32,769 nt of DNA from a virus. The stretch lies in the IMG/VR virus record IMGVR_UViG_3300050821_007565, positions 1 through 32,769 of that record. One strand, written 5' to 3'. Below, piece by piece: positions 8,608 to 29,747 of the stretch (the stretch's first letter is position 1; each line of letters begins with the position of its first letter). Under the pieces are notes generated by a model that saw only the letters and a program-made list of their open reading frames with translations, searched no databases and was not told where the DNA came from. Both the position numbers and the translations under genes were made by a program.

Positions 8608-10670
8608 ATATTTGGAAGGGCCGTATAAAGGAATGCGAAGGTGTGCAGAAAGAAATGCACAACGAATGGAATGTCGCTATTGACCTTTATAATTGTAAGT
8701 ATAAAGACACAATGGCAACAATTGACTCTGATAGGGTAGAAGTTAATTTCGCTAATTGGTACGTCACTAATCTAGTTCCTCTTCTTTATTTTCGTGATCC
8801 TTATATATTTTTTAAGAATGAAACAGACTCATGGGAAAAATTCTCTAATACACTTGAGAAGGTAGTTAATTCTGAATGGAAAAGATTAGAGCTTAAGGAA
8901 CAGTTTAAGGATGTTATTTTATCTGGTTTACTTACATCTCCTGGGTGGATTAAGGAGGGATACACAGCACAGATAGGGCAAGATGAGGCTAAACATGAAG
9001 AGATCAAACAAAAATCTATCATTACTTCTATCAAAGATGCGATATTGGGAAACAGTAAGACTGATAAAAATGAGGAACTTCCTGAGCAAAAAGGGGTTCT
9101 AGACCATCATATTAAAGAAGAGAGTGTTTTTGTTTCATGGGTTCCATCGTGGAATATTCTAATACCTCCTGGTTATCCTCGTATGAGAGACTTACCGTAT
9201 ATGATACAAGCGGAAAAGATAGCCATGAGAGATTTTTTGGATAATCCTCAGTATAAAAATAAAAATGATTTGCAAATGGCTTATGAAGCACAAAAGGATA
9301 GTGGAGGAACAAGATTACAGAAGGTTCCTTATGATTCATCAGGAGTTCCAGTTGATAATTACAGCGAATTAACCACAATTACTTTATACCATATTTGGGA
9401 TAGACGTTCACAAAAACGTATGACCTTAAGCATGCAAGGGGATGATTGGCATAGGACAGGTGATTGGCCGTATGATTTTGATGGTTTTCCTTTTGATGAC
9501 TGTATGTTTGAGAAGACATTACCTTCACAGGAGAAAGCTAATCCATACCCACCTAATTGTATTAGACCAATACTTCCTCAGATATTAGAACAGTCTAATA
9601 TAAGAACACAGATGTCTAAATGGCGTAAACGTTCTTCAGCTATTGTTATGGCCCAAAGAGATATGTTATCTGAAGAGGATATGAACCAACTAGAGAATTC
9701 TGATGCCCTACAGATAACATATTTAAGCGATATTAAAGGTGTTGTAATGACTGCTACTCCTCCTTTACCTAATCAGGTATTCGAGGTTGGTGCAGAGATA
9801 CAACAAGACCTACAGTCAGCGACCAATATGGGTCAGCTTATGTTCGCTCCACAGCCAGGTCAAAGGACAGCTACACAGGCTAAGATGGGAGCTCAAGGTT
9901 TACAATTAAAGATATCAGCTAAACAGGATGTGATAGAGGATCTAACAGTAAGGATTGCCCGTAAATTAGCGCAATTAGTTTGGCAGTTCTATGATAGAGA
10001 CAAGGTTGAAGAGATTATTGGTGAAAAGGTTAGTGAGCAGATGTGGCCTGATCTACCAGAAGATAAAGTTGAACGAAGAAGAGTTATCCGTAGTATGAAA
10101 GTATTTATTGATGCAGGATCCGCTGCTCCTCCGAAAGATGAAACAACAGATAAGAAACAATTATTGGATGCAGTATCTATTATGTCAAGCATAGCTCCAG
10201 AACGATTAAAGAAAGATGAAGTATTGAAATCTTTAATTAAGAAATTCAAATTTGAAAAAGATGTTGATAAATTGGTAATTACGAATGACGACGAAGAGAT
10301 TAAATGTGCCCAAGAGGAAAATGGATTTTTACAAGCTAATCATCCCTGTATTGTAAGTCCTAACAATAATCATCAAATCCATTTACAAGAACATGCCCAA
10401 GCAAACAGAACACCTGCTTTGGCGCAACATATTTTAGATCATGCGAAGTTTGCAGGTTTATTGCCAGGTAAACAGGGTCCTGGTAGTGAAACAGGTGGGA
10501 ATGGTGGTCCACAAGGTGGTCAGGACGGTAATAAAGGACCTCAAAAAGGAGATGCAAGGCCTCCTATGAGATCTACAAATCCTGAGATTGTAAGGCAATC
10601 AACACCAACAATGGGTTCAGTTGCAGGTTCAGCACAGAATAGAGGACCTAATTCAGTTACTGCTTCTTAA
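8595..10670 (+). CDS. Portal protein
   Basis: The 691-residue protein lies straight after the terminase, as portals do, and begins at GTG with AGGAG six bases before it. It has the helical, Trp- and Asp-rich character of the large portals of short-tailed phages, including the early NFANWYVTNLVPLLYFRDPY, a central APQPGQRTATQAKMGAQG stretch and a long crown/stem-like helix region. The C-terminal 90 residues become Gly/Pro/Gln-rich (GGNGGPQGGQDGNKGPQKGD) and are probably a disordered tail. The portal makes the dodecameric ring through which DNA enters and leaves. The call rests on order and composition, not on a strict motif. Confidence 0.85.
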   Translation: MEEINIWKGRIKECEGVQKEMHNEWNVAIDLYNCKYKDTMATIDSDRVEVNFANWYVTNLVPLLYFRDPYIFFKNETDSWEKFSNTLEKVVNSEWKRLELKEQFKDVILSGLLTSPGWIKEGYTAQIGQDEAKHEEIKQKSIITSIKDAILGNSKTDKNEELPEQKGVLDHHIKEESVFVSWVPSWNILIPPGYPRMRDLPYMIQAEKIAMRDFLDNPQYKNKNDLQMAYEAQKDSGGTRLQKVPYDSSGVPVDNYSELTTITLYHIWDRRSQKRMTLSMQGDDWHRTGDWPYDFDGFPFDDCMFEKTLPSQEKANPYPPNCIRPILPQILEQSNIRTQMSKWRKRSSAIVMAQRDMLSEEDMNQLENSDALQITYLSDIKGVVMTATPPLPNQVFEVGAEIQQDLQSATNMGQLMFAPQPGQRTATQAKMGAQGLQLKISAKQDVIEDLTVRIARKLAQLVWQFYDRDKVEEIIGEKVSEQMWPDLPEDKVERRRVIRSMKVFIDAGSAAPPKDETTDKKQLLDAVSIMSSIAPERLKKDEVLKSLIKKFKFEKDVDKLVITNDDEEIKCAQEENGFLQANHPCIVSPNNNHQIHLQEHAQANRTPALAQHILDHAKFAGLLPGKQGPGSETGGNGGPQGGQDGNKGPQKGDARPPMRSTNPEIVRQSTPTMGSVAGSAQNRGPNSVTAS

Positions 10671-10678
10671 ATGAATAT

Positions 10679-11113
10679 ATGAGATACGATTATTTTTGTA
10701 ATAATTGTGGAAATACTCAAGAAGAAATACATGGGATGTTACAGAAACCCGTTGTTCATTGTAATAAGTGTAGAGGTTTAGCAGTAAAGTTAATTTGCGG
10801 TGAACCTCAGTTTTGTGGGGTAGATGGTACTGCAAGTATGTATAACTTTACTGATTTTAATACAACTGGAAAACCAGTGGTGATTAACAGTAAGACTCAA
10901 TGGAAAGACCATCTTAAACGAAACGGCTTAAATGACGACGTTAAGAACGACCCATTGACTAAAGCTGATATTCAATCAATGGAACAGTCCAGTAAAAGAA
11001 AGAAGGAAGAACAACGTAAGGTTATAAAATCTAGTGTTGTTGATGTAGTAAGGAATACTCCTCAATCTAAACTTAGAGAGAGGGCTAAAAAAGTAATAAG
11101 AAATGGAGGGTAA
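10679..11113 (+). CDS. FmdB-type zinc-ribbon protein, 144 aa
   Basis: The protein begins MRYDYFCNNCGNTQEEIHGM, and Cys 7, 10, 28 and 31 form two CxxC knuckles as in the FmdB/CxxC regulatory zinc ribbon. After about 60 residues it turns into a charged Lys/Glu region with coiled-coil features (SSKRKKEEQRKVIKSSV). Such proteins are common between portal and scaffold genes in phages of this sort; their function is unknown. No clear Shine-Dalgarno precedes the ATG. It overlaps a purine-rich site for the next small gene. Confidence 0.68.
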   Translation: MRYDYFCNNCGNTQEEIHGMLQKPVVHCNKCRGLAVKLICGEPQFCGVDGTASMYNFTDFNTTGKPVVINSKTQWKDHLKRNGLNDDVKNDPLTKADIQSMEQSSKRKKEEQRKVIKSSVVDVVRNTPQSKLRERAKKVIRNGG

Positions 11114-11117
11114 ACGC

Positions 11118-11291
11118 ATGGCCGATACAATCCAACCAGTTAGCAAGCCTGTACCTAAAGCCGATGGTCTAGCTAGTCCTAGTGGTTATTCCACTTTGAC
11201 GACACCAGAGCCATCTTTTGGTCGTTATTTTGGTTCAGGTCAAGAAGGAAAAGATGCAAAGGGTAAATCAAGTATGATGGGAAAGAAGTAA
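11118..11291 (+). CDS. Small Gly/Ser/Pro-rich protein, 57 aa
   Basis: The ATG at 11118 is preceded by GGAGG with eight bases of spacing, so it is preferred to an earlier ATG at 11103 that overlaps that site. The protein starts MADTIQPVSKPVPKADGLAS and ends in a Lys-rich tail (GKSSMMGKK). It is low in structure-forming residues, suggesting a flexible linker or a scaffold partner. No family is recognised. Confidence 0.55.
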   Translation: MADTIQPVSKPVPKADGLASPSGYSTLTTPEPSFGRYFGSGQEGKDAKGKSSMMGKK

Positions 11292-12238: not shown

Positions 12239-13219
12239 ATGGCTTTTAATACGCAGACTATCAATTACGATACGATTGGATCTATAACAGATCCATTGAT
12301 ATCGCAAAAGGTAGCTGACAACATTACTCAGAATATCCCTGTTTTGTATCTTTTGGACAAGATGGGTAATAAAGAGTATGAAAATGGCGGTACTCAGTAC
12401 AATATCCCTGTATTCAAGGAAATGCAAACAGTCCAAGCTTATTCTGGATTGACAAATCTTTCCTATACAGATGAAGATCCCATTACGTCAGCCTACTACA
12501 ACAGGAAGCTATTGACAATTCCTGTGACCTTAACTGGTCAGAAATTGTTGATTAACGGTGGTGATACTAAAGAAGCTATTATTGATTATGCTACGACTGT
12601 CATTGAAACTGCACAGGAAGGCATGAAATCAGGGATGGCAACTCAAATCTTCTCAGCTAATGCTGAAGCGGATTTAGGTATCACTGGTTTACAAAACCTT
12701 GTTTCCTCAACCCCTACAACGGGTACATCAGGTAACTTGGCTCGTGCTACTTATACATGGTGGCAAAATTATCAAACTACTTGTACGACTAACTGGAGTA
12801 CAAATGGTTTGATTTCTTTAAGAACTGCATTTGTGAATTTGGTTCGTGGTCAAGAAGTTCCAACTCTTGGTATTATGACAGCAGCTACATGGATTAACTT
12901 CCATCGTTCTCTGACATCTACCATTAATTACAACTTGCCTACACCTAATACACAAAGTGGGGATTTGGCATTTCAGCATTTGTATTTCCAAGGTGTTCCG
13001 TTCATGTTTGATTACAACACACCTGCGAATACAGTTTATTTACTGAATCTGAAATACATGAAATTCCTTGTTCATGCAAAACGTGACATGGTGTTTCGTG
13101 ATTTCATTGCTCCAATTGACCAAGATGCTTTGGTTGGCCGTCTGTATTGGGCGGGTAACTTAGTTTGTTCTAACATGGCACGTCAGGGAGTCATTACTGG
13201 CTCACCTGATACTTATTAA
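12239..13219 (+). CDS. Major capsid protein (HK97-fold type)
   Basis: The 326-residue protein follows the scaffold with a GGAGG site. It opens MAFNTQTINYDTIGSITDPL and has the kind of N-terminal arm and peripheral domain seen in HK97-like coats, such as KMGNKEYENGGTQYNIPVFK and the later ITGLQNLVSS segment, with FRDFIAPIDQDALVGRLYWA near the end. I recognise it by position, size and style, not by one invariant motif. It has no signal peptide, unlike its neighbour. It should be the most abundant virion protein. Confidence 0.85.
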   Translation: MAFNTQTINYDTIGSITDPLISQKVADNITQNIPVLYLLDKMGNKEYENGGTQYNIPVFKEMQTVQAYSGLTNLSYTDEDPITSAYYNRKLLTIPVTLTGQKLLINGGDTKEAIIDYATTVIETAQEGMKSGMATQIFSANAEADLGITGLQNLVSSTPTTGTSGNLARATYTWWQNYQTTCTTNWSTNGLISLRTAFVNLVRGQEVPTLGIMTAATWINFHRSLTSTINYNLPTPNTQSGDLAFQHLYFQGVPFMFDYNTPANTVYLLNLKYMKFLVHAKRDMVFRDFIAPIDQDALVGRLYWAGNLVCSNMARQGVITGSPDTY

Positions 13220-13236: not shown

Positions 13237-13776
13237 ATGAAAAAATTAATATTCTTATTGGCTATCCCCTTTTTATTCTTAGGTGGGTTAGTTCATGCTG
13301 AAAATAGTGCAGCTTCTTATGATAGGTTTTATTGGTCAGGTCAAGTATTTGTCCAAGCCTATAATAATGGAGCTTCTAGTATTGCTGTAAATAATGCTGT
13401 TGTCATTGATTCAAGCGTTGCTGTTGCAAAGATTGGATCAGGATCAGCTAATTTAGGGCAATATATTACAACATCTGCTACTACAGATAGCGTTTATATC
13501 TTTGGTGTTACAGATGAAGCAATTGCGGCTGGTGCATTAGGTCGTGTTTGTGTTCGTGGTCCTCATAAAGTTGTGTGGACTGGTGTAGGTGGTCCTGCTG
13601 CTGGTACTGTGTTCTCTAATGCGAGCACAACTGCTGGTCTAGTAGGAGGTACATCAACTGCTGCTGGTACTAATCATGGTATCTTAGGCAGAATATTAAG
13701 CGCAACAGTAACTACCGATACTGGTGATGCTGCTAATACTTATTGGGCATGGATTCAACCACAAGTTGAAAACTAA
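13237..13776 (+). CDS. Decoration-type virion protein with Sec signal peptide, 179 aa
   Basis: An AGAAAGGAG site precedes MKKLIFLLAIPFLFLGGLVH followed by AEN, a textbook Sec signal peptide with a cleavage site after residue 21 (VHA). The mature part is small, Gly/Ala/Thr/Val-rich and probably all beta, with a pattern like capsid decoration proteins (a VSGxxV-type FGVTDEAIAAGALGRVCVRG). Such a gene right after the coat would normally be cytoplasmic. The presence of an export signal is odd and recurs in six more genes here. Either it is exported to work outside the cell, or assembly happens at the membrane. Confidence 0.68.
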   Translation: MKKLIFLLAIPFLFLGGLVHAENSAASYDRFYWSGQVFVQAYNNGASSIAVNNAVVIDSSVAVAKIGSGSANLGQYITTSATTDSVYIFGVTDEAIAAGALGRVCVRGPHKVVWTGVGGPAAGTVFSNASTTAGLVGGTSTAAGTNHGILGRILSATVTTDTGDAANTYWAWIQPQVEN

Positions 13777-13791
13777 ACCATAACGAGTTCA

Positions 13792-13816
13792 TCCCCCTCT
13801 CAAGACAAAAGGGGGA
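13792..13816 (+). terminator. Stem-loop after the decoration gene (weak terminator or processing site)
   Basis: TCCCCCT (13792-13798) pairs with AGGGGGA (13810-13816) over seven pairs with an 11-base loop. It is followed by CTAATTT and not by a run of T, so it is not a full intrinsic terminator. Placed right after the capsid genes, it could stabilise their mRNA or let only part of the transcripts read into the tail genes. Confidence 0.45.
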
Positions 13817-13832
13817 CTAATTTAGGAGTATG

Positions 13833-14981
13833 ATGGTAAATGTAATAGTTATAGCAATACTGATAATACCTTGGCTGATAATTCCGTTTAATGATATTCC
13901 TGAACCTACCAGGTTAATTAAAGCAGCATTCTTTGATTTCGCAATGATGGGTGTTATCGTGATGGCATTAATTAATGGATTGAAGTTTGAGTATAAGAAT
14001 AAGTATTTAGCATGGTTTTCTATAGTAGTATTTGTAACAATGGGGCTTAATTGGTATTTACCATTATTGAAAGGGCAAGGTTATAACGCAGGAACAATTG
14101 AGTCATGCTTACATTATATACTTGCTTTAACAGCCTTTTATTTAATATGTTCAAACTTTGAACGTTCTGATTTCATAAGATGTGCAAAAGCTATGTGCAT
14201 ATCTTCAACATTAGTATCAATATTTTGTATATTTCAATCGGTAGGACTGGACCCTATGAGTCACCTAGCAACTTATACCTACAAAGAGCCTCGTCACATA
14301 GCTGCATTACTTGACCATCCAGATATGGTTGGTAACTACCTATGCCTAGTTCTACCGTTATTTATTTATTTTAATAAACCTAAATATTATATAGGTATGG
14401 CATTATGCGTAATAACATTATTATTAACTAAATCAAGTTTATCTGTTTTTTCTGCTGTTATAGGTATATCAATTTATACAACTATTAAGTATGCAGGAAA
14501 AAGGATGGTATTAGGGATAGTTGCCTTAGGATGTATTTTATTTTTTATATTCTGTTTTATTAATAAGGACTTTAATAAAATTAACAATGGTTTTACTGGC
14601 AGGACGGAAGCATGGAGCATGATGGTAAAACGTATGGACAATCCTTTATTTGGAAGAGGTTTAGGTATAGTTAAATCTCTTAATGTACAGACAGGTGCAT
14701 TAAAAGCAGATGGAGTTAATAGAGAAAACTTTTGGATGTTTGCACATAATGATTATTTAGAGACGTATTGTTCTGTAGGTGCAGTAGGTTTATTTTTACT
14801 ATTATTAGTCATAATAAATTCTATTCGTAGATTTAATTTTAAATCAGACAATAGAATAGGTTATGCTTATTTTGGATGTTTTTTTGCTTTCTTAATAGTA
14901 ATGTTTGGATCGTTTCCGATGGAATTTCCACCACTTGCTTTAAATGGTTTAATATTGTTCGCAGGAATTGAAAAAACATAA
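13833..14981 (+). CDS. Wzy/WaaL-type O-antigen polymerase or ligase, about 382 aa
   Basis: The protein has about ten hydrophobic segments, beginning VNVIVIAILIIPWLIIPF, and a large loop after the seventh or eighth. It contains FTGRTEAWSMM near residue 252 and AHNDYLETY near residue 304, the Arg and His of the Wzy_C/O-antigen ligase motif that handle the undecaprenyl-linked sugar. In bacteria such enzymes polymerise O-antigen or attach it to lipid A-core. In some phages they change host serotype and block superinfection. The gene lies inside the morphogenesis operon between the capsid and tail genes. The start at 13833 was chosen because GGAG lies only one base before ATG 13830. Confidence 0.78.
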   Translation: MVNVIVIAILIIPWLIIPFNDIPEPTRLIKAAFFDFAMMGVIVMALINGLKFEYKNKYLAWFSIVVFVTMGLNWYLPLLKGQGYNAGTIESCLHYILALTAFYLICSNFERSDFIRCAKAMCISSTLVSIFCIFQSVGLDPMSHLATYTYKEPRHIAALLDHPDMVGNYLCLVLPLFIYFNKPKYYIGMALCVITLLLTKSSLSVFSAVIGISIYTTIKYAGKRMVLGIVALGCILFFIFCFINKDFNKINNGFTGRTEAWSMMVKRMDNPLFGRGLGIVKSLNVQTGALKADGVNRENFWMFAHNDYLETYCSVGAVGLFLLLLVIINSIRRFNFKSDNRIGYAYFGCFFAFLIVMFGSFPMEFPPLALNGLILFAGIEKT

Positions 14982-14990
14982 GGAGTTAAT

Positions 14991-15833
14991 ATGCCACCGT
15001 CAACAGCATTAAAAAGTAAACCAGATGAGAATGATGTTACATTAATTGATTATAATGGAGCAATCCAGCAATTAATCGCTCAATCTAAAAAAGAACTTGA
15101 AGATATAAAAAATCAGATTCTTCTTGAAAATGTCAATTCAGTTAAACTAAAGGAAAAATTTCTTAAAGACACTCAAGAATTTGAAAGATGGAAACGTTCT
15201 GAAGAACAGAAATTCAAGAATCTATTAGCAGAAAAAACTAATGAGATAATAAAGAACAAGAATGAAATAGATATTCATGTTCAACAGCAAAGGCAGATTA
15301 CGGCTGACCTTAATTTACAGCATCAGAAATTTGAAGGTCTTAATGCTGAAAGAGTTAAATTAAAGGAAGAGCTTGTAAGAGTTGAAGGTATGAGGATTCA
15401 AGCTATTGATATGATAAAACAAGCTGAGACACAAAGAGCAGAGGTATTGACTCAGCAGAATAATGCTAACATGGCTTTAATTAAGGCTAAAGAGATAGAA
15501 GAAATAGCACACCAAGAGAATATTAGATTAACTAATCTTAATGATGCTCTTGAATCCAGGGCAAGAGAAATAGAACAAAAGGCAAAAGATTTAGGTAATT
15601 TAAAAGAGTTTGTTGAACCTAAGTTAAGAACAATTACGGAACAACAAGAAGCTTTAGAAGAGGCTAAGAAAGAAAATGATGAAAGGATAGCACAGTTACA
15701 GGCAAAGATTGAAGAAGAAAAAATTCTTTTTAAGTCTGTAATGGATAAAAAGTCAGAAGTTGAAAAACAAGAGAAAGAATTATTATCTAAAAAAGAAGAA
15801 TTTGGAAGACAGCAATTACTGGCAGGTAAATAA
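14991..15833 (+). CDS. Long coiled-coil virion-region protein, 280 aa
   Basis: From about residue 20 nearly to the end, the sequence is heptad-like with strong Lys/Glu/Gln content (for example QQRQITADLNLQHQKFEGLN and KEEFGRQQLLAGK), so it should form a long coiled coil. It begins MPPSTALKSKPDENDVTLID after a clear AAGGAG site. No enzyme motif or signal peptide is seen. Position between the sugar enzyme and the neck proteins suggests a structural spacer or an internal virion protein; it is too short for a tape measure. Stop and next start overlap as TAATG. Confidence 0.5.
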   Translation: MPPSTALKSKPDENDVTLIDYNGAIQQLIAQSKKELEDIKNQILLENVNSVKLKEKFLKDTQEFERWKRSEEQKFKNLLAEKTNEIIKNKNEIDIHVQQQRQITADLNLQHQKFEGLNAERVKLKEELVRVEGMRIQAIDMIKQAETQRAEVLTQQNNANMALIKAKEIEEIAHQENIRLTNLNDALESRAREIEQKAKDLGNLKEFVEPKLRTITEQQEALEEAKKENDERIAQLQAKIEEEKILFKSVMDKKSEVEKQEKELLSKKEEFGRQQLLAGK

Positions 15834-16165
15834 TGTCTCAGGTACGAGATCCAAACACAGGAGATAGGGACTCTATACAGAGGTTAGTTACTTCCAGAAT
15901 CAATGTAAGTATTCTACCTACCACCGTAGCTGTAGGAACATCTGCTTTAGCTTTACCAAGCAATCCTAGATCGAATAGAACATTCATATTAGTTCAGAAT
16001 CAGTCTGCTAATCCTGTTTTCATAGGGGATGCTTCTGTAACAACATCCAACGGTTATCAACTTAATCCTTTTAGCGACATTACAATCCCCTGTACTGATG
16101 GAGCAGTTATATATGCTATCGCAGGTTCAGGTGGTAATAATGTATTCGTAGGGGAAGGTGTCTAA
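15833..16165 (+). CDS. Small beta-rich virion-region protein, 110 aa
   Basis: It starts in a TAATG junction with the coiled-coil gene and ends in a TAATG junction with the adaptor gene, so it is translated as part of a chain. The protein, MSQVRDPNTGDRDSIQRLVT onward, has a short polar head and then alternating hydrophobic strands (RTFILVQNQSANPVFIGD, ITIPCTDGAVIYAIAGS). This resembles small beta-sandwich decoration or fibre-base domains in other phages ('FILVQN...PVFIG'). The role is not established. Confidence 0.55.
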   Translation: MSQVRDPNTGDRDSIQRLVTSRINVSILPTTVAVGTSALALPSNPRSNRTFILVQNQSANPVFIGDASVTTSNGYQLNPFSDITIPCTDGAVIYAIAGSGGNNVFVGEGV

Positions 16166-17280
16166 TGACATTCTTAGATGTGCAAAATCAAGTTGTTAAT
16201 ATGAGTTTAGTTCAGAGTCAAACAGCTCTTGTTCAATTCTCTATTCAATGGGCTATTAATAGAATAAGTCAATATTTTGAATGGCCTTATTATATGCAGA
16301 ACCAGGTTATAACAACCACTGCTCCGTATTCTACAGGTACAGTAGCTGTTACAAATGGGTCTGCCACGGTTACAGGGACTAATACCGTATGGACATCAGC
16401 AATGGTTGGAAGAAAGATACAAATAGGTGGTGATAATGCTTACTATTATGTATTAACTGTTAATAGTACAACAAGTATTACATTAGCTGTTCCATATCAA
16501 GGAACAACTCAATCAGGATCTACTTACAATATTTATAAGGATGAATACAAATTGTCTCCTGATGTTCAGGCATATAAAACTATTGTTCAGATACAAAATA
16601 GTTTAGCCATGAACGGAATGCCACCAACTAAGTTTGATAAAATATTCCCAACTCAAACATCCTTTTCTTCTCCTTATATAGAAGTTATGGAGGGAACTAA
16701 GTTAGATACATATGTTACAGGAACAGTATCGACAACCATTAATAGTGGGACAATAACAGGTGTTGGAACATCTTGGTCTTCTGTTGAAGGCCTAGGAAGA
16801 ATGACAGATATTATTATAGCAAGCAATAGATATACAGTTAAATCTGTTAATTCAGATACTTCTATAACAACTTATGAAAATGCTCTAGGTACGGTATCCG
16901 CATCATCTTATACTCTTAATTTAAGAAATATAAAAGTTCAAGTATTCCCAATTCCTAATGATCAAGAGAATTTGTATTATAGATATTTTCGTATGCCTGA
17001 TATTCTTGTTAATTCTTATGATGTTCCAGACCTACCTCAAGATTGGCATTGGATTATAGTGTGGGGTGCATTAAGTTGGATTTACCTTCAAAAGGGAGAT
17101 ATTGAGAAGGCATACACCCAGGCAGAAGCTAGATTCTTAGAAGGATTACAGAATATGAAGAAAAAGATTGGTAATCATGCAGCGGATAGAATATATCGTA
17201 GGAATTCTCAAGATAGAGGCAATGTATTCTTTGACGGTTTAGAAAAAGGAAGTTTTGATCGTAGGTATAGTTCTCCATAA
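16165..17280 (+). CDS. Head-tail adaptor-like protein with two beta insert repeats, 371 aa
   Basis: The helical N-terminus (MTFLDVQNQVVNMSLVQSQT) and the C-terminal helices with DLPQDWHWIIVWGALSWIYL and a following Lys-rich tail look like the adaptor/tail accessory proteins (P22 gp4, T7 gp11 style) that sit under the portal. In the middle are two related beta repeats: GTVAVTNGSATVTGTNTVW (about 57) and GTVSTTINSGTITGVGTSW (about 186), each followed by a G-x-x-I-x-x-x-x-x-x-Y-V segment and ending with T-x-x-S-Y. Such inserts decorate neck proteins. A GGGGAAGG purine run precedes the ATG. Confidence 0.65.
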   Translation: MTFLDVQNQVVNMSLVQSQTALVQFSIQWAINRISQYFEWPYYMQNQVITTTAPYSTGTVAVTNGSATVTGTNTVWTSAMVGRKIQIGGDNAYYYVLTVNSTTSITLAVPYQGTTQSGSTYNIYKDEYKLSPDVQAYKTIVQIQNSLAMNGMPPTKFDKIFPTQTSFSSPYIEVMEGTKLDTYVTGTVSTTINSGTITGVGTSWSSVEGLGRMTDIIIASNRYTVKSVNSDTSITTYENALGTVSASSYTLNLRNIKVQVFPIPNDQENLYYRYFRMPDILVNSYDVPDLPQDWHWIIVWGALSWIYLQKGDIEKAYTQAEARFLEGLQNMKKKIGNHAADRIYRRNSQDRGNVFFDGLEKGSFDRRYSSP

Positions 17281-18947
17281 TGAAGAAATTATTAATATTC
17301 CTTATATGTATTCTTATATGTTCAAACGCATACGCTAAATTGCCTTGGGATAAATATTCATATTTTTCAAATTATGGAGGTTTAAACGATAATCTTTCTA
17401 AACTAGAGATAGCAGATAATGAAGCAACTTCTATACAGAATGTTGTCTTTGATACAGGTGGTGCAATATCTAAGAGGTATGGATATCAGAATATAACAAG
17501 TCCTGGAGCAGCGTACGCTGTAGTAGCAGGTTCTTCTGCCATTACAGGTATTTATTATTATAAACAGTACGGTGGTAATAATTATATTGTAGCTTGTGCT
17601 AATGTAAGCTCACAATTGGAATGTTTCCAAAAGCAATATGATGCAAGTAATAATATACCTGTAGGTTCTTGGACAAGAATAGATGGAGGAAATTTACCTA
17701 CAACCTATAATAATAATCAATATGTAACATTTTCACAGGCTAATAATGTTCTTGTTATAACTCCCCAAGCAAGTAATGTAACAAACCCTTGGGCATGGCA
17801 AGCAACTGGTAATATATATACACTTACAAACAGTGCAAACGTAACTCCGTCAACGATATCTGTTTTTCATAAGAATATACTATTTATATCAGGAGATCCG
17901 AATAACCCATCAAGGGTAAGATATAGTGATTTAACGAATGGAATAACAGTATTCAACGCAACGGATTTCTTTGACTTAGATAAGAACAATGGTCAAAAGG
18001 TTACAGCATTAGTATCTGCTTATGGTAATTTATATATATTTGAAGACAACAGTATTTGGATGTTGACAGGTTCAAGTAACGCTGATTTTAGTTTACAGAA
18101 AATGGTTGATAATGTAGGAACCTTAAGTCAACAATCTATTTCAGTAATCAACGGTCATATATTTTTCGTTACGAAACAGAATGATATTGCTATTTATGAT
18201 GGTAACTATAGTGTTCAATTCCTTAGTAGTAAGATAAGGAATACAATTGGTGGAAATAATTTTAACAGGGCATCAACCGCCATAGGTCTTGGGTTCTCTT
18301 CTTATAAATATAAAGACCTAGATTATTATGTTGCCGAGTCATTAGTAGGAACTAATCAAAATAATTCTGTTCTTTTATATGATACCTATAGAAGTGCATG
18401 GACTGTATTTAGTGGAATAACTCCAAATGCTTGGGCTGTTGTAGACTCATCCAATGGTCAGAATATAATGATATTTGGTGATAATAAAGGTCTTATTTAT
18501 TTTTATCCAAATATAGGTACATACCATGATGTTAGTAACACTTGTGATGTAAATAATGTTTGTACAACAACTTCAGGTTCTATTTATTCATTTTATCAGA
18601 CAAAATGGTTCAGATATTCAGATGCAGCATTAGGTAATAAATACTTAAGATTATTAAAGACATACATATCAAATTCAACATTAGCAAGCTATCTAACAAC
18701 TACAGTAAAATCAGATTATAGTAATAGCGGTAATGTATATACTTACACATTCAATCCTTCTGGTGCGTTATGGGGAGTAGCAAAATGGGGAGTTGATATG
18801 TGGACAGGTGGTGGGTTGAATATTGATAGGGAAGAGCCTAATCTTGGTACTCAAATGTTTCAAATATTATATTCTAACAATATTGTAGATCAGGATATGA
18901 CTATACTTGGATGGGAATTATTTATAGAACCTACGGATACCATATGA
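17280..18947 (+). CDS. Nozzle/tail-tube B-like protein with Sec signal peptide, 555 aa
   Basis: The mature start, KLPWDKYSYFSNYGGLNDNL, followed by NEATSIQNVVFDTGGAISKRYG, matches the N-terminal signature of tail nozzle or tubular B proteins (P22 gp10 / T7 gp12 type: a 'GG-(M/L)-N ... A ... N-(V/F)-x-x-x-x-x-G-x-(L/I)-x-(K/R)-R-x-G' line). The rest has the repeated aromatic strands of a beta propeller. Ahead of this lies MKKLLIFLICILICSNAYA, a clear signal peptide that other nozzle proteins lack. It starts at a TAATG junction and overlaps the fibre gene by ATGA. How an exported nozzle could reach a virion made in the cytoplasm is unexplained. Confidence 0.7.
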   Translation: MKKLLIFLICILICSNAYAKLPWDKYSYFSNYGGLNDNLSKLEIADNEATSIQNVVFDTGGAISKRYGYQNITSPGAAYAVVAGSSAITGIYYYKQYGGNNYIVACANVSSQLECFQKQYDASNNIPVGSWTRIDGGNLPTTYNNNQYVTFSQANNVLVITPQASNVTNPWAWQATGNIYTLTNSANVTPSTISVFHKNILFISGDPNNPSRVRYSDLTNGITVFNATDFFDLDKNNGQKVTALVSAYGNLYIFEDNSIWMLTGSSNADFSLQKMVDNVGTLSQQSISVINGHIFFVTKQNDIAIYDGNYSVQFLSSKIRNTIGGNNFNRASTAIGLGFSSYKYKDLDYYVAESLVGTNQNNSVLLYDTYRSAWTVFSGITPNAWAVVDSSNGQNIMIFGDNKGLIYFYPNIGTYHDVSNTCDVNNVCTTTSGSIYSFYQTKWFRYSDAALGNKYLRLLKTYISNSTLASYLTTTVKSDYSNSGNVYTYTFNPSGALWGVAKWGVDMWTGGGLNIDREEPNLGTQMFQILYSNNIVDQDMTILGWELFIEPTDTI

Positions 18948-19813
18948 TAAAAAAATTATTATTAATACCATTATTGTTATTATCAACAGTAGCATTAGCC
19001 TCCGCTCCAACAAGAACGTATACCTATGTATCTCATACAGTTATAGACCCTAATCAGAATAATACAAATGAAAATAGTCTATATTCTTACCTTCAAAATG
19101 GTGTGGACACTTATGCAGCAGGTACTATAACAAACACAGCTATTAATAGTAGTGCTGCAATAGCATATAGTAAATTGAATTTATTAAATAGCGTTGTTAA
19201 TGCAGATATTAATTCGTCTGCTGCAATAGCGTATAGTAAGTTGAATTTGACAGGTAACATTGTTAATGCGGATATAAGTTCAAGTGCTGCTATTGTAGGA
19301 AGCAAGTTAGATCTTACCTCACCTGGAGCTATTGGTAGTACAGCAGCAAATACTGGATCATTTACAACATTAAAAGTAGGAACAACTCATCAGGGAGATG
19401 TTCTTTATGATAATGGAACTTCATTCGTAAGGCTTACTCCTGGTACGAATGGACAATATTTACAAACTCAAGGAGCATCTGCAAATCCTCAGTGGGCTAG
19501 TGTACCTGCTATATCAGGTATATTAGGTACATGGGCATCTGCTACGTTAGGTTCATCTACACAAGTAACCACAGATGGATTTCTAGTAGGTTATGCTATA
19601 GGAGATGGAGCGCATACCGATACTATCACAATAAAGACAGATTCAAGCAATCCTCCTACAACTATTCGTTCTCAAGTGATTACTGGAACAATAACAGCAG
19701 GTAGCTATTCTGTACCTTTATTCTCTCCTGTTAAGAAAAATGATTATTATTTAATAGAAAAATCAGGTACGGGTTCAAATTATACAGTTTATTTTATTCC
19801 ATTAGGAACATAA
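18944..19813 (+). CDS. Tail fibre-like protein A with Sec signal peptide, 289 aa
   Basis: It starts at the ATG overlapping the nozzle stop. MIKKLLLIPLLLLSTVALA is a signal peptide; the mature protein begins SAPTRTYTYVSHTVIDPNQN. Three repeats of the type (N-A-D-I-N)-S-S-A-A-I-A-Y-S-K-L-N-L follow at about residues 65-125, a known repeat of phage fibres, then a 'GTTHQGDVLYDNGTSFVRL' block that also occurs in fibre B, and a divergent C-terminal tip of about 100 residues. It is probably the first of a set of host-contact fibres. The export signal is the oddity. Confidence 0.68.
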   Translation: MIKKLLLIPLLLLSTVALASAPTRTYTYVSHTVIDPNQNNTNENSLYSYLQNGVDTYAAGTITNTAINSSAAIAYSKLNLLNSVVNADINSSAAIAYSKLNLTGNIVNADISSSAAIVGSKLDLTSPGAIGSTAANTGSFTTLKVGTTHQGDVLYDNGTSFVRLTPGTNGQYLQTQGASANPQWASVPAISGILGTWASATLGSSTQVTTDGFLVGYAIGDGAHTDTITIKTDSSNPPTTIRSQVITGTITAGSYSVPLFSPVKKNDYYLIEKSGTGSNYTVYFIPLGT

Positions 19814-20121
19814 TGAAATTCTTACTTTTAATATTATTATTCATCCCAATCACTTGTTACGCAGGAATCTCTAATACTGTGTCTTCAAATTGGACCATTC
19901 AATCACCACCAAAGGATGCCAATGAAGTATCTTTATACAACTATATGTATATTTTATATTCTCATTTTAATCAGTTGGAAGTTACAACAAATGATCCAAA
20001 TGGTGTAAGGAATACCAACATAGGAACATCTATTATCTATAATAACGCAGGTACGTATAAATTTTGTGTAGAAACAGCTAACCCTTCAGGAACGGTGTGG
20101 AAATGTTCAACTTTAAGTTAA
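19813..20121 (+). CDS. Short fibre-related protein with Sec signal peptide, 102 aa
   Basis: MKFLLLILLFIPITCYA is a signal peptide, followed by GISNTVSSNWTIQSPPKDAN and EVSLYNYMYILYSHF. The latter echoes the N-terminal 'NENSLYSYLQ' region of the flanking fibres, so this looks like a short relative without the repeat shaft and tip, perhaps a base or chaperone piece. Its start overlaps the end of fibre A by one base (TAATG). Its own end overlaps the start of fibre B. The C-terminal half has two Cys (CVETANPSG, WKCSTLS), which could form a disulphide after export. Confidence 0.55.
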   Translation: MKFLLLILLFIPITCYAGISNTVSSNWTIQSPPKDANEVSLYNYMYILYSHFNQLEVTTNDPNGVRNTNIGTSIIYNNAGTYKFCVETANPSGTVWKCSTLS

Positions 20122-20909
20122 TAATACTATTCTTATTAGTACCTACTATAGCTTTAGCTACTCCTCCTACTCGTACATACAATTATGTATCTAATGCAAC
20201 TATAGATCCGAACCAGAACAATACTAATGAGAATGCAATATATTCTTATTTACAAGTAGGTGTAGATACCTATGCTCCTGGTTCTATATCATCCTCTGCT
20301 ATTAATGCTAATGCTGCGATAGCATATTCACAGTTAAGTTTATCCAATAGTATTTTAAATGCAGATATTAATTCATCAGCAGCGATTGTAGCAAGCAAAC
20401 TTGATCTTACGTCACCTGGTGCAATAGGAAGTGTAGCTCCAAATACAGGGGCTTTTACAACTTTAAGTGCGACAGGAACCGTTAATTTAGGTACTACTCA
20501 TCAAGGTGATGTATTTTATGACAATGGGACATCTGTTGTACGTCAACCTCCAGGAACATTAGGACAGGTGTTGCAAACAGGAGGAGCAGGAGCTAATCCA
20601 AGTTGGGTTAATTCTTTATCAAGTGTTTCTGACTATGGGACAAGTTCAAGTGTATCAACAGCGTACCAAGGAACAAATACCAAAATAGCTTATGGCAATA
20701 TATCTGTCGCTAATAAATCATCAACTAATATCACTAATTTACCTTTTACTTCATCAACATCTTATAAATGTACCTGTAATCAAGTAGCAGGAAATTTAGG
20801 AAATATGAATGGTCCTTGTGCCGTTGCATATTCTAGTGGATCACAAGTAGCTATTGAGAACGCATCAGATACAACATTTGTTGAATCATGGATTTGTATA
20901 GGAACCTAA
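20103..20909 (+). CDS. Tail fibre-like protein B with Sec signal peptide, 268 aa (paralogue of A)
   Basis: The signal MFNFKLIILFLLVPTIALA is followed by TPPTRTYNYVSNATIDPNQN, matching fibre A closely through the S-S-A-A-I repeats and the GTTHQGDVFYDNGTSVVR block. After about residue 170 the two differ, and this one carries four Cys (CTCNQ, GPCAV, WICIG), a possible pattern for disulphides in an oxidising place such as the periplasm or outside. The ATG at 20103 was preferred over a GTG two codons upstream. It looks like a gene duplication with a changed tip, which fits fibre diversification. Confidence 0.65.
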   Translation: MFNFKLIILFLLVPTIALATPPTRTYNYVSNATIDPNQNNTNENAIYSYLQVGVDTYAPGSISSSAINANAAIAYSQLSLSNSILNADINSSAAIVASKLDLTSPGAIGSVAPNTGAFTTLSATGTVNLGTTHQGDVFYDNGTSVVRQPPGTLGQVLQTGGAGANPSWVNSLSSVSDYGTSSSVSTAYQGTNTKIAYGNISVANKSSTNITNLPFTSSTSYKCTCNQVAGNLGNMNGPCAVAYSSGSQVAIENASDTTFVESWICIGT

Positions 20910-25244: not shown

Positions 25245-26477
25245 TTGAACATCTTAGCTCTAGATCCTGGTGGACTATACTGCGAACAGGCAAACGCTCT
25301 TTGGAAGAAAGGTGATACGGTAAAATACTGGACATCATGGGTTGCAGATCAGAAGTTTGACTGGTACTCCATAGGACTTGGATTTGGTAATTTAGAGAAG
25401 GTAAAATACGCTGCCGAATGGTATGAATGGGCTGATTGTATATTCGCTCCAGATGTTACAGGACAGGACGAAATAGCATTTCTTAGAACAATATACAAAC
25501 AAAAGTCTATATTTGGAAGTGGTTTAGCGCATAAATTGGAGCAGGATCGTTGGGGATTGAAGAAGGTCCTTAAGGATATAGATATTAAGTTTAGCCAGTC
25601 TGAACGTATTATAGGGATAGAAAAACTCAGAGAATATCTTAATACCAATAAAGACAAGTACATAAAAATATCAACATTTCGTGGTGACGTAGAGAGTTTT
25701 TACGCTAAAGACGCTAAGTCAGTTGATTTAAAGTTAGATGAACTAGCAGCAGCGAGGGGACCATTCAAGAATAAAATAGAGTTTATTGTAGAAGAAACCA
25801 TACCTTCTGATGTAGAGATTGGTGCTGATTTAATATTCAATGGTAATGAATATCTTAAACCATATATATTCGGATATGAAATAGGAAAAAAATTTTATTT
25901 CGGTAAGGTTAGTGAAGAGTTACCTACATTGCTTAAAGAAGGGATGGAAAAACTAAAACCAGTTCTTAAAAAATTAGACTATAGATCGTGTATATCAACG
26001 GAGATTAAATGTGTCAGTAAAACAGAAAGTTACTTTCTTGATATAACGTGTCGTCTCCCTAATCCTCTATGTGCTATTTATAACGAGTATATAACTAACT
26101 GGCGTGAGGTGGTATTAAATACGGGTTCTAAGAAGAATGTTAGACTGAACATTAAACATAAATACGTTGGAGCTTTTTTCCTTAATTCATATCACGGCAT
26201 GAGTCATTATGTGAAGATTGAAGTAGAAGAGAAAGATCGTTCTAATATCAAATTCGTAGTTGTAGGTGAGAATGACGGTCAGTTTTATAGTATTAAGGGT
26301 ACGGAAAAGATTGCGGTCGTCATTGCAGGTGGGGAAACAATTCAGGAAGTCATAGATACCATAAAGAAATATACAGATAAAGTAGACGCAGACGGTTTAG
26401 ATAAAGGGGCAGTACATGAAATTGATAAAATACACGATATTATTGCTGCTGGTAAGTCTATGGGCATCGACTTCTAG
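25245..26477 (+). CDS. ATP-grasp ligase-like protein, 410 aa
   Basis: The protein opens with a Rossmann-type MNILALDPGGLYCEQANALW, like the preATP-grasp domain of PurD and carboxylate-amine ligases, then LEQDRWGLKKVLKD (about 98), KYIKISTFRGDVESF (about 139), the acidic EFIVEETIP (about 181) and YFLDITCRLPNP (about 263). The order of Lys, Glu and Asp/Asn residues fits an ATP-grasp fold, which joins a carboxylate to an amine or thiol. The partner is unknown. The start is TTG, since no ATG or GTG lies nearby and no strong ribosome site is seen. Its end overlaps the LamG adhesin by 62 bases, so the two may work together. Confidence 0.65.
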   Translation: MNILALDPGGLYCEQANALWKKGDTVKYWTSWVADQKFDWYSIGLGFGNLEKVKYAAEWYEWADCIFAPDVTGQDEIAFLRTIYKQKSIFGSGLAHKLEQDRWGLKKVLKDIDIKFSQSERIIGIEKLREYLNTNKDKYIKISTFRGDVESFYAKDAKSVDLKLDELAAARGPFKNKIEFIVEETIPSDVEIGADLIFNGNEYLKPYIFGYEIGKKFYFGKVSEELPTLLKEGMEKLKPVLKKLDYRSCISTEIKCVSKTESYFLDITCRLPNPLCAIYNEYITNWREVVLNTGSKKNVRLNIKHKYVGAFFLNSYHGMSHYVKIEVEEKDRSNIKFVVVGENDGQFYSIKGTEKIAVVIAGGETIQEVIDTIKKYTDKVDADGLDKGAVHEIDKIHDIIAAGKSMGIDF

Positions 26478-28515
26478 TGTAGCCCAAAACACCCAATCAG
26501 GACCAACGACCCGTGGTGCATCATTAAATTTAACTGATGGTGGAGCTAATAGCTGTTTCCCTTATAAAGTAACTGTATCTTCTGGATCTTTGTCTTGTTC
26601 TGGAGGGACAGCTTCACTTACAACTGGTGGAGGTGTATCTTCAACATCTAATTCTGATGGTTCTCTGACAATAAGCCCAACCACAGGAGCAGTCGTCGCC
26701 TCTTTAGCCCCTGCACATTCTAATACATGGACCGGACAGCAGATCTTCAATACTACAGCCCCACAGGTAGGTACAGCTACGGTTACAACCCCCGCTGCCT
26801 TTGATGGCAGTAAGAATCTTATCTCAGGTTCTTATACTGGTAACACTACTAAGGTTGTGACCAACACAGGCACAAACACCCAAAATGCTCTTTTGAAGTG
26901 GGATGCTAACGCAAATGCCATATCTGCTGGGTTGATCGTAGGAACTTTGACAGATGGAGATATGTGTACTTATACGGCTTCAGGAACGGCATTTAACTGC
27001 AATACCGCGGTTCCTACAGGTTACTGGACGTTATCATCAACTAATTTATATTCACCTACCACAGATACGGTGACGACAGGTGTATCTTCTACGACAAGAG
27101 ATGTCTTTACGGTTAATGCGGATGGTGTCTTAGGATCAGGGGAATGGATTGATTATTCAGGTCCTGGGGCGTATACAGCAGATGCAAACACAGTAACATT
27201 ATTACATTTTGATGGAACCAATGGTTCTACTACTTTTACAGATAGTGAAAATACTCCAAAGACATTTACTGCTAATGGGGGTGCTGTTCTTTCTACATCT
27301 TCTCCAGTATTTGGTACAGCTTCTGGTTCTTTTATATCTGCAACTTCTTCATATATAACAACTCCTGATAGTGCTGATTTTCATTTTGGTTCAGGAAACT
27401 GGACAGTAGATTTTTGGGCTAGAAGAACCGCTACAAATACGGTTGGTCGTATTTGTGGTATAGGAGATAACGGATTAAATCATTGGTCTTTTATTATAGG
27501 ATATGAAGGGAATGATAATAATTTAATAACTCGTGTGGAAAATTCTGGTGGAACTCAAACTTCCACAATAGCTACTGGAGCTACAGATACGAATTGGCAT
27601 CATTATGCTTTAGTAAATAATGGTGGAACTGTAACTACTTATCTTGATGGCACATCATTAGGTACACAAACTCTAACTGGAAATTTAAGGAATCCTGGAA
27701 CTGCTTTAACAATAGGAAGAGAAGGAGATTATGCATCTGGTTATTTTAATGGTAAAGTTGATGAATTTAGAATTAGTAACGTAGCTAGGTGGACAACAAA
27801 CTTTACTCCTAATGGTATTTCATCTCCTAGGTTAGTCTTAAGTGCTAATGGTGTGCAAACATTTAAACTATATACTGATGGTACTAATGGAAACCAAGCT
27901 ACTTATACAGTAGGATCAACAAATGTTGAGACCCAGACAACGAGCAATACTACTTTAAATACTTCTCTTACAATGTCTGCTCAGAATATTGTTACAGATA
28001 CTTCTACCGGAACAATCATAGGAACAGGCACAACCCAAAAGTTAGGGTTCTTCAATGCAACGCCAGTAGTTCAACAGGGAGCAACAACTGATTTAGGCAC
28101 AGTATTATCTAATTTAGGTTTAAGGGCTTCTGGTACAGCTTATCCGATCACTACATCAGGAGCAGTCACCCTTACAGGTACAAACTCGATAACAACTCCT
28201 ACATTCAATGGTCAAGTCTACGGACATCAAACGGCCCCTACAGTGGCTAATAATGATTGTGGCTCAACAACACAAGGCACAATAGGCACGAAGTCAACTG
28301 ACATCGCTGGAAAGATAACGGTAGGAACCATAGCAGTAACAAGTTGTGCTATAACCTTTAACACGACATGGTCGACAGCTCCATTCTGTGTGGTTTCAGA
28401 TGATAGTCATGTATTAGCTGTGCAGCCTTCGACTTCAACAACAAAACTAACTATTACGGCATTAACAAATTTAGACAGCGATAATCTAACGTATGTCTGT
28501 ATGGGAGGAAATTAA
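26416..28515 (+). CDS. LamG-domain adhesin/tail fibre with Sec signal peptide, 699 aa
   Basis: The start ATG lies inside the ATP-grasp gene with AAAGGGG six bases upstream. MKLIKYTILLLLVSLWASTS continues SVA and gives a signal of about 23 residues. Residues about 30-250 are Thr/Ser/Gly-rich fibre-like repeats; about 258-456 is a concanavalin-like LamG domain (TVTLLHFDG at its start, WTVDFWARR and NWHHYALVNNGG in the middle, GKVDEFRIS at its end), which binds sugars or proteins. After it come more repeats and a Cys-bearing tip (about 600-699). It is probably a receptor-binding or surface adhesin protein. The export signal again departs from ordinary tail fibres. Confidence 0.68.
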   Translation: MKLIKYTILLLLVSLWASTSSVAQNTQSGPTTRGASLNLTDGGANSCFPYKVTVSSGSLSCSGGTASLTTGGGVSSTSNSDGSLTISPTTGAVVASLAPAHSNTWTGQQIFNTTAPQVGTATVTTPAAFDGSKNLISGSYTGNTTKVVTNTGTNTQNALLKWDANANAISAGLIVGTLTDGDMCTYTASGTAFNCNTAVPTGYWTLSSTNLYSPTTDTVTTGVSSTTRDVFTVNADGVLGSGEWIDYSGPGAYTADANTVTLLHFDGTNGSTTFTDSENTPKTFTANGGAVLSTSSPVFGTASGSFISATSSYITTPDSADFHFGSGNWTVDFWARRTATNTVGRICGIGDNGLNHWSFIIGYEGNDNNLITRVENSGGTQTSTIATGATDTNWHHYALVNNGGTVTTYLDGTSLGTQTLTGNLRNPGTALTIGREGDYASGYFNGKVDEFRISNVARWTTNFTPNGISSPRLVLSANGVQTFKLYTDGTNGNQATYTVGSTNVETQTTSNTTLNTSLTMSAQNIVTDTSTGTIIGTGTTQKLGFFNATPVVQQGATTDLGTVLSNLGLRASGTAYPITTSGAVTLTGTNSITTPTFNGQVYGHQTAPTVANNDCGSTTQGTIGTKSTDIAGKITVGTIAVTSCAITFNTTWSTAPFCVVSDDSHVLAVQPSTSTTKLTITALTNLDSDNLTYVCMGGN

Positions 28516-29373: not shown

Positions 29374-29747
29374 TGAAAGTCCTGTTGATTGACGATGAAC
29401 CAAATGAATCGCTTATCACCGCTCATGCTATAGAGGGCGTGTTTCCTAATGTTGAACTTGAACAGGTTCATAGTTGCGATGAGGCTTTGGTCAATATTAG
29501 TGCTGCTGCGTATGACTTGATTATCACAGACTTGAACTTACCTAAGCATAATGGCTACCGCACTATTGAACTTATCAGAGAGATTTGTCCAGATGCCCAC
29601 ATTATTATCCTTACAGGCTCAGCTTCTTATTTTAATTCCAAGAGAGCTGATGATCTGAACGTGCCAATATTCAAGAAGAGCTTTGACAGCAAGGAGTTAC
29701 TTAGCTATTTACAAAAGATGAAGGAAGACTATGGTTCAGTCATCTGA
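29373..29747 (+). CDS. Stand-alone response-regulator receiver domain, 124 aa
   Basis: The frame starting MKVLLIDDEPNESLI has GAGG eight bases before it. All receiver landmarks are present: the acid pair Asp 7/Asp 8, the phosphoacceptor Asp 53 in LIITDLNLP, Thr 81 in ILTGSA and Lys 102 in the FKKSF loop (Pro replaced by Ser). There is no DNA-binding or enzyme domain after it. Such single receivers (CheY/Spo0F type) pass a phosphate signal on. Here it lies between a holin-like and an XhlA-like gene, so it could tie lysis or phage decisions to a host sensor kinase, or act as a decoy for one. Confidence 0.78.
   Translation: MKVLLIDDEPNESLITAHAIEGVFPNVELEQVHSCDEALVNISAAAYDLIITDLNLPKHNGYRTIELIREICPDAHIIILTGSASYFNSKRADDLNVPIFKKSFDSKELLSYLQKMKEDYGSVI

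Follow-up and report, generated by a model that had tools for sequence, protein, structure and literature searches.

A gene for a Wzy_C-family polytopic membrane protein is a core late-operon gene of an uncultured clade of short-tailed phages (podoviruses), and not an inserted conversion gene. The window, by which we mean the whole stretch of DNA analysed, is a linear fragment of 32,769 bp catalogued as a virus record in IMG/VR; relatives were collected via its Wzy_C-family protein, capsid protein and portal. As to function, the reading that we tentatively place first is a protein O-glycosyltransferase of TfpO/PglL type with exported virion proteins as its substrates; late modification of the O-antigen comes close behind. 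Phage wzy genes have so far been read as serotype-conversion extras; the one described here has a constant place in the morphogenesis operon.

The Wzy_C-family gene and its slot in the late operon

The open reading frame spans 13830-14981 on the forward strand, encodes about 382 residues and is a real gene. Its second Met codon, at 13833, is a better start than the first, as the homologues begin there in the alignment and an AGGAG at 13824-13828 lies 4 nt from the second ATG and 1 nt from the first. The original prediction of a Wzy/WaaL-type membrane enzyme at 13833-14981 is borne out by a match to Pfam PF04932 (Wzy_C; E = 1.1e-13, its 51.6 bits exceeding the cut-off of 31.7), and a scan of the aligned homologues with the same profile matched 4 of 4, the best at 5.7e-18. 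The PglL_A model (PF15864), by comparison, matched neither the window protein nor its homologues, even with E values of up to 1 allowed. A PDB sequence search with the window protein gave no real relative, tblastn with it gave 0 matches in 50,697 phage records and 0 in plasmids, and a scan of genome contigs returned only a bacterial Wzy_C gene (L005), located inside a polysaccharide gene cluster.

The late block opens with terminase (6889), portal (8595), zinc-ribbon and scaffold-like genes and continues through the coat genes, the Wzy_C-family gene and the neck and tail genes as follows.

12239..13219, + strand: major capsid protein, without signal peptide (phrog_9953, PHROG 'major head protein', 6e-49)
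13237..13776, + strand: decoration-type protein, named by its position with no family match behind the label; Sec signal peptide MKKLIFLLAIPFLFLGGLVHA (codons 13237-13299), cleaved before ENS
13792..13816, + strand: GC-rich hairpin CCCCC...GGGGG in the gap between the decoration-type and Wzy_C-family genes, with no T-run after it
13833..14981, + strand: predicted Wzy_C-family polytopic membrane glycan transferase, about 382 aa (Pfam PF04932, slot in five lineages, invariant residues, WaaL as best PDB fold match)
14991..15833, + strand: coiled-coil protein, without signal peptide, starting 10 nt past the stop of the Wzy_C-family gene
15833..16165, + strand: small protein, without signal peptide (phrog_30212, 8e-8, a family whose function is not known)
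16165..17280, + strand: neck adaptor protein, without signal peptide (SU10_adaptor, 8.7e-10)
17280..18947, + strand: tail nozzle ('phage stabilization') protein, Sec signal peptide MKKLLIFLICILICSNAYA, cleaved before KLP
18944..19813, + strand: fibre-like protein, Sec signal peptide (phrog_2012 minor tail, 1.2e-5)
19813..20121, + strand: small protein, Sec signal peptide by signal-peptide scoring
20103..20909, + strand: second fibre-like protein, Sec signal peptide, similar to 18944-19813 by shared tblastn matches
26416..28515, + strand: lectin-domain spike-like protein, Sec signal peptide ending in SVA and cleaved before QNT (Laminin_G_3, 8.3e-20)

The predicted location between capsid/decoration and neck genes thus stands, with the major capsid and decoration-type genes upstream and the SU10_adaptor gene downstream. 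Five divergent lineages have the slot sequenced (the window, G001/L002, L011-L013, L029 and L035), and in all five the Wzy_C-family gene sits between the decoration-type and coiled-coil genes, so that the proposed comparison with related phages places the gene where the window has it; the contigs of L014, L015, L032 and L034 stop before the slot and are neutral on presence. Across lineages, pairwise identity is 32-50% for the Wzy_C-family protein, 51-58% for portal, 48-56% for adaptor and 42-61% for nozzle. Neighbour-joining recovered the same two pairs, window/G001 and L012/L029, for the Wzy_C-family gene as for the portal, and the pairwise identities of the Wzy_C-family protein correlate at 0.65-0.80 with those of portal, decoration-type, adaptor and nozzle proteins, and at 0.47 with those of the coiled-coil protein. 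These comparisons, covering five taxa and including no formal test, are suggestive of vertical inheritance of the gene together with the structural genes.

An assembly artefact or a recent stray insertion of a bacterial gene would fit the locally lower GC of the gene (0.31), but we give this almost no weight. Its codon fit and GC3 lie within the range of its neighbours, and the related contigs refute both forms of the idea: identical gene order in the independent contigs of G001/L002, L011-L013, L029 and L035 led us to reject an artefact, and codon use, co-inheritance and the fixed slot in five lineages led us to reject a horizontally acquired moron.

The gap upstream of the gene contains GC-rich hairpins, differing in sequence and lacking a T-run, in five of five lineages (L002 7949-8006, L012 11527-11590, L029 12165-12220, L035 15152-15202 and window 13792-13816). 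A classical terminator was considered and rejected, as the window hairpin lacks a T-run and an intrinsic terminator scan of the gap found none; the hairpin is perhaps an attenuator, or an mRNA-stabilising element behind highly expressed coat genes. Downstream of the gene, the neck adaptor carries inserted domains (approximately residues 52-143 and 182-252) that match many tail-fibre PHROGs.

Placement of conversion genes in other phages

The premise that phage conversion genes usually lie near attachment sites holds for phage D3, in which the iap-acetylase-wzyB unit is about 2.5 kb from attP and wzyB is on the opposite strand to a tail gene, and for VarioGold p25, which adjoins a recombinase gene (PMC9658991); it does not hold for Halomonas phage YPHTV-1, whose 'O-antigen ligase' gene (PMC10305713) is, like the window gene, a Wzy_C gene inside the tail/late block. 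Location in the late block alone is therefore not unique to this clade. YPHTV-1 differs from the clade in being a siphovirus, in pairing its gene with an O-acetyltransferase gene and in retaining an intact SR motif; its protein matched the L012 homologue only, at 29% identity over 39% of the length.

D3 Wzy-beta (386 aa), phi297 and VarioGold p25 resemble the window protein in being phage Wzy_C-family membrane proteins of similar size. D3 wzy belongs to the conversion unit of a temperate phage, close to attP and on the opposite strand, unlike the window gene, which is core and lies in the late block with coat genes on one side and neck genes on the other. No D3-type conversion unit (inhibitor, acetylase, near att/int) was identified in the window, no integrase, Iap, acetylase or gtr genes were identified near the Wzy_C-family gene, and a family search within the window identified no other O-antigen genes.

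These comparisons bear directly on late modification of O-antigen/LPS, in which a Wzy polymerase or WaaL ligase would act on host lipid-linked O-units during the lytic cycle, so that progeny would avoid binding to debris or superinfection would be blocked. We regard this as a substantial possibility, though one we would not bet on. It gains from membership of the family that includes D3 Wzy-beta, a polymerase with a proven role in serotype conversion; D3 lysogens have a changed serotype and resist superinfection (PMC4815439). It is harder to reconcile with the accessory, attP-proximal nature of conversion units, given that here the gene is core and occupies one fixed site in five lineages, with none of the genes just listed identified nearby; a fixed core gene also contrasts with host O-units that vary between strains. 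Because the family alone cannot separate the two, this explanation stands close behind protein O-glycosylation.

Active-site residues and fold

Enzymes of the Wzy_C family act at the periplasmic face, using glycans carried on undecaprenyl diphosphate. With residues numbered from the Met at 13830, the conserved positions of the window protein are R258, N271-P-x-F-G-x-G-x-G279, H306-N-D and G317. In the alignment, GR258, NxxFGxGxG, HND306-308 and G317/G320 are kept in five of five phage lineages, which upholds the expected Arg/His pair (GR...HND) in the motif loop. R258, G275, H306, G317 and G320 are invariant also against D3 Wzy-beta, the YPHTV-1 protein and a bacterial Wzy_C protein, and an H-x10-G motif extends from H306 to G317. 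The loop from R258 to H306 is predicted to be periplasmic by hydropathy and positive-inside counts, its side being assigned by the positive-inside rule only. Equivalents of R258 and H306 and the H-x10-G motif are found in D3 Wzy-beta, and these, with the shared R258, G275, H306, G317 and G320, count in favour of O-antigen modification; the lack of BLAST-level similarity between the two proteins (E 0.061) counts against it.

One Arg is absent from the clade. The SR/AR motif of the three outgroups (D3 Wzy-beta, YPHTV-1 and bacterial Wzy_C) reads SS, SH or SI in five of five phages, which sets the clade apart from D3 Wzy-beta. By spacing only, the absent residue would map to R215 of E. coli WaaL and R224 of PglL, both of which are functionally important (PMC3643930), and on that mapping the third essential Arg of WaaL is missing from the five phages. 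Such a loss could mean that the chemistry has been lost or changed, and that the protein is now a platform in the inner membrane on which the virion proteins with signal peptides are assembled or exported. The absence in all five phages of an Arg conserved in other Wzy_C proteins, and the coupling of the gene with signal-peptide proteins, speak for this possibility; retention of the GR, NPxFGxGxG-type and HND motifs at 32-50% overall identity, as in a working active site, makes it very improbable in our judgement.

An AlphaFold model built from six sequences had low confidence (pLDDT 49, pTM 0.52), and one from two sequences gave pLDDT 38. With the former, the O-antigen ligase WaaL (7TPG) was the first Foldseek match among 350,542 chains (probability 1.00, E 0.015) and also led with a second aligner (VIA Z 9.1 over 292 residues, 13% identity), ahead of the SEDS protein FtsW at Z 6.5; a BFVD fold search gave nothing useful. 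As the model has a pLDDT of 49, statements about the fold are weak, and the matches are supportive of a WaaL-like fold, not proof of it. With that same caution, WaaL as best PDB fold match adds to the case for O-antigen modification. The window protein departs from WaaL 7TPG in this low sequence identity, again from a low-confidence model, and in that its gene lies outside any LPS cluster.

Signal peptides and candidate substrates

Signal peptides were called with a simple home-made scorer combined with conservation across lineages, and were predicted for 6 of 21 late ORFs in the window compared with 3 of 236 ORFs in 14 control phage loci. Conserved signal peptides on late structural-type proteins occur in the window, L007, L012, L029 and L035. 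In five of five lineages the decoration-type and nozzle proteins have predicted Sec signal peptides whose A-x-A sites align, and the signal part is less well conserved than the mature part (34 versus 43% identity for the decoration-type protein, 36 versus 50% for the nozzle). In the more distantly related L014 the capsid gene is directly followed by a gene for a signal-peptide protein, and G001 has such a protein of 703 aa at the place equivalent to the window's spike-like gene. In the outgroup Microcystis phage MaAM05 the nozzle lacks a signal, its N-terminus coinciding with the start of the mature part in the clade, and none of ten other nozzle-slot proteins checked had such a signal. Nozzle residues 422-428 form an insert with a C-x5/6-C pair, common to the window and G001 and absent in L012 and L029, which would fit a disulphide made in the periplasm.

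We read these calls as a division of the particle, with signals lacking on terminase, portal, capsid and adaptor and present on decoration, nozzle, fibre-like and spike-like proteins, that is, on outer or late-added parts; several of these roles are assigned by position, and the virion roles of the decoration-type and fibre-like proteins in particular are suggested by position or weak similarity. Sec signal peptides are likewise encoded in phages of Porphyromonas gingivalis, in some cases by capsid genes; there, removal of the capsid signal is ascribed to the prohead protease, and the other cases follow the Bacteroidetes Q rule (PMC10367356). The signals described here differ in being on decoration, nozzle, fibre and spike proteins beside a Wzy_C gene, and the Q rule was rejected as a host clue, since most cleavage sites here have no following Gln. 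In a limited literature search, the P. gingivalis report was the only one found on exported virion proteins of tailed phages, and we found no description of a core Wzy_C gene whose neighbours encode virion proteins with conserved signal peptides. If export is real, tailed-phage assembly in this clade would extend beyond the cytoplasm.

The signal peptides on neighbouring virion proteins open another class of substrate, exported phage proteins, and leave O-antigen modification with a conserved feature that it does not explain. TfpO/PilO and PglL belong to the Wzy_C superfamily, and their genes, as in pilA-pilO and comP-pglL, are adjacent to and co-oriented with the gene of an exported protein (PMC3643930). 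In bacteria, 21 of 31 pglL candidates adjoin pilin genes, pglL-comP and pilO-pilin are proven or accepted enzyme-substrate pairs, and pilO adjoins its own pilin gene and lacks the PglL motifs (PMC3643930). The equivalent arrangement, an adjacent co-oriented signal-peptide gene, is found in five of five lineages, where the upstream decoration-type gene would encode the acceptor; the candidate substrate here is thus a phage coat-type protein, unlike the pilin substrates of TfpO/PilO and PglL.

We favour an O-glycosyltransferase, as the family acts at the periplasmic face, the gene always follows an apparently exported coat-type protein, and O-oligosaccharyltransferases are often encoded beside their substrate. 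The family match and the fold ranking led by WaaL, the conserved R258 and H306 on a loop predicted to be periplasmic, the conservation of the decoration and nozzle signal peptides, the rarity of such signals in the controls, the lack of any other O-antigen gene in the family search of the window and the core status of the gene, unlike that of a conversion moron, argue in the same direction. On the other side, PglL_A is unmatched, the Arg of the SR/AR site is absent in five of five phages, no glycosylation motif was identified, and exported structural proteins would pose an assembly problem. As the PglL_A model is unmatched, we do not file the protein as PglL.

Under protein O-glycosylation, decoration, nozzle and fibre/spike proteins would enter the host Sec pathway late in infection, and the enzyme would take a host undecaprenyl-diphosphate-linked glycan and place it on Ser/Thr of at least one exported protein, the first candidate being the decoration protein encoded directly upstream. 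At lysis, cytoplasmic heads would meet the exported outer parts. Collectively, the data suggest, but do not prove, that the clade exports some of its own particle proteins and adds host sugars to them. The fuller picture of a two-compartment particle, in which DNA-filled heads remain cytoplasmic while Sec-exported decoration, nozzle, fibres and spike are glycosylated periplasmically with host glycans by the phage O-oligosaccharyltransferase and are joined to the heads at lysis, is in our estimation unlikely as a whole. If glycosylation does take place in the periplasm, the phages would encode their own route to a virion coated with sugars, which would bear on host binding and particle assembly.

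The Wzy_C family also includes exopolysaccharide polymerases. The enzyme might polymerise some other periplasmic glycan, or transfer sugars to it, with effects on release or superinfection; exopolysaccharide, capsule and an enterobacterial-common-antigen-like polymer are the candidates, and the bacterial relative L005 in its polysaccharide gene cluster would be in keeping with this. The fixed core position beside apparently exported virion proteins would go unexplained, however, and we consider such an activity improbable.

Three further features were recorded. The major capsid gene of L029 (9986-11632) is interrupted by an ORF of 181 aa (10609-11154) with a homing-endonuclease look and a 'GLIDGEG' motif; the inserted element is probably an intron or intein. 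The window carries a P4-family phage/plasmid primase C-terminal domain at 581-1969 on the reverse strand (TIGR01613, 2.7e-52) and, near the end of the late region, a stand-alone response-regulator receiver domain at 29376-29744 (PF00072, 4.9e-14).
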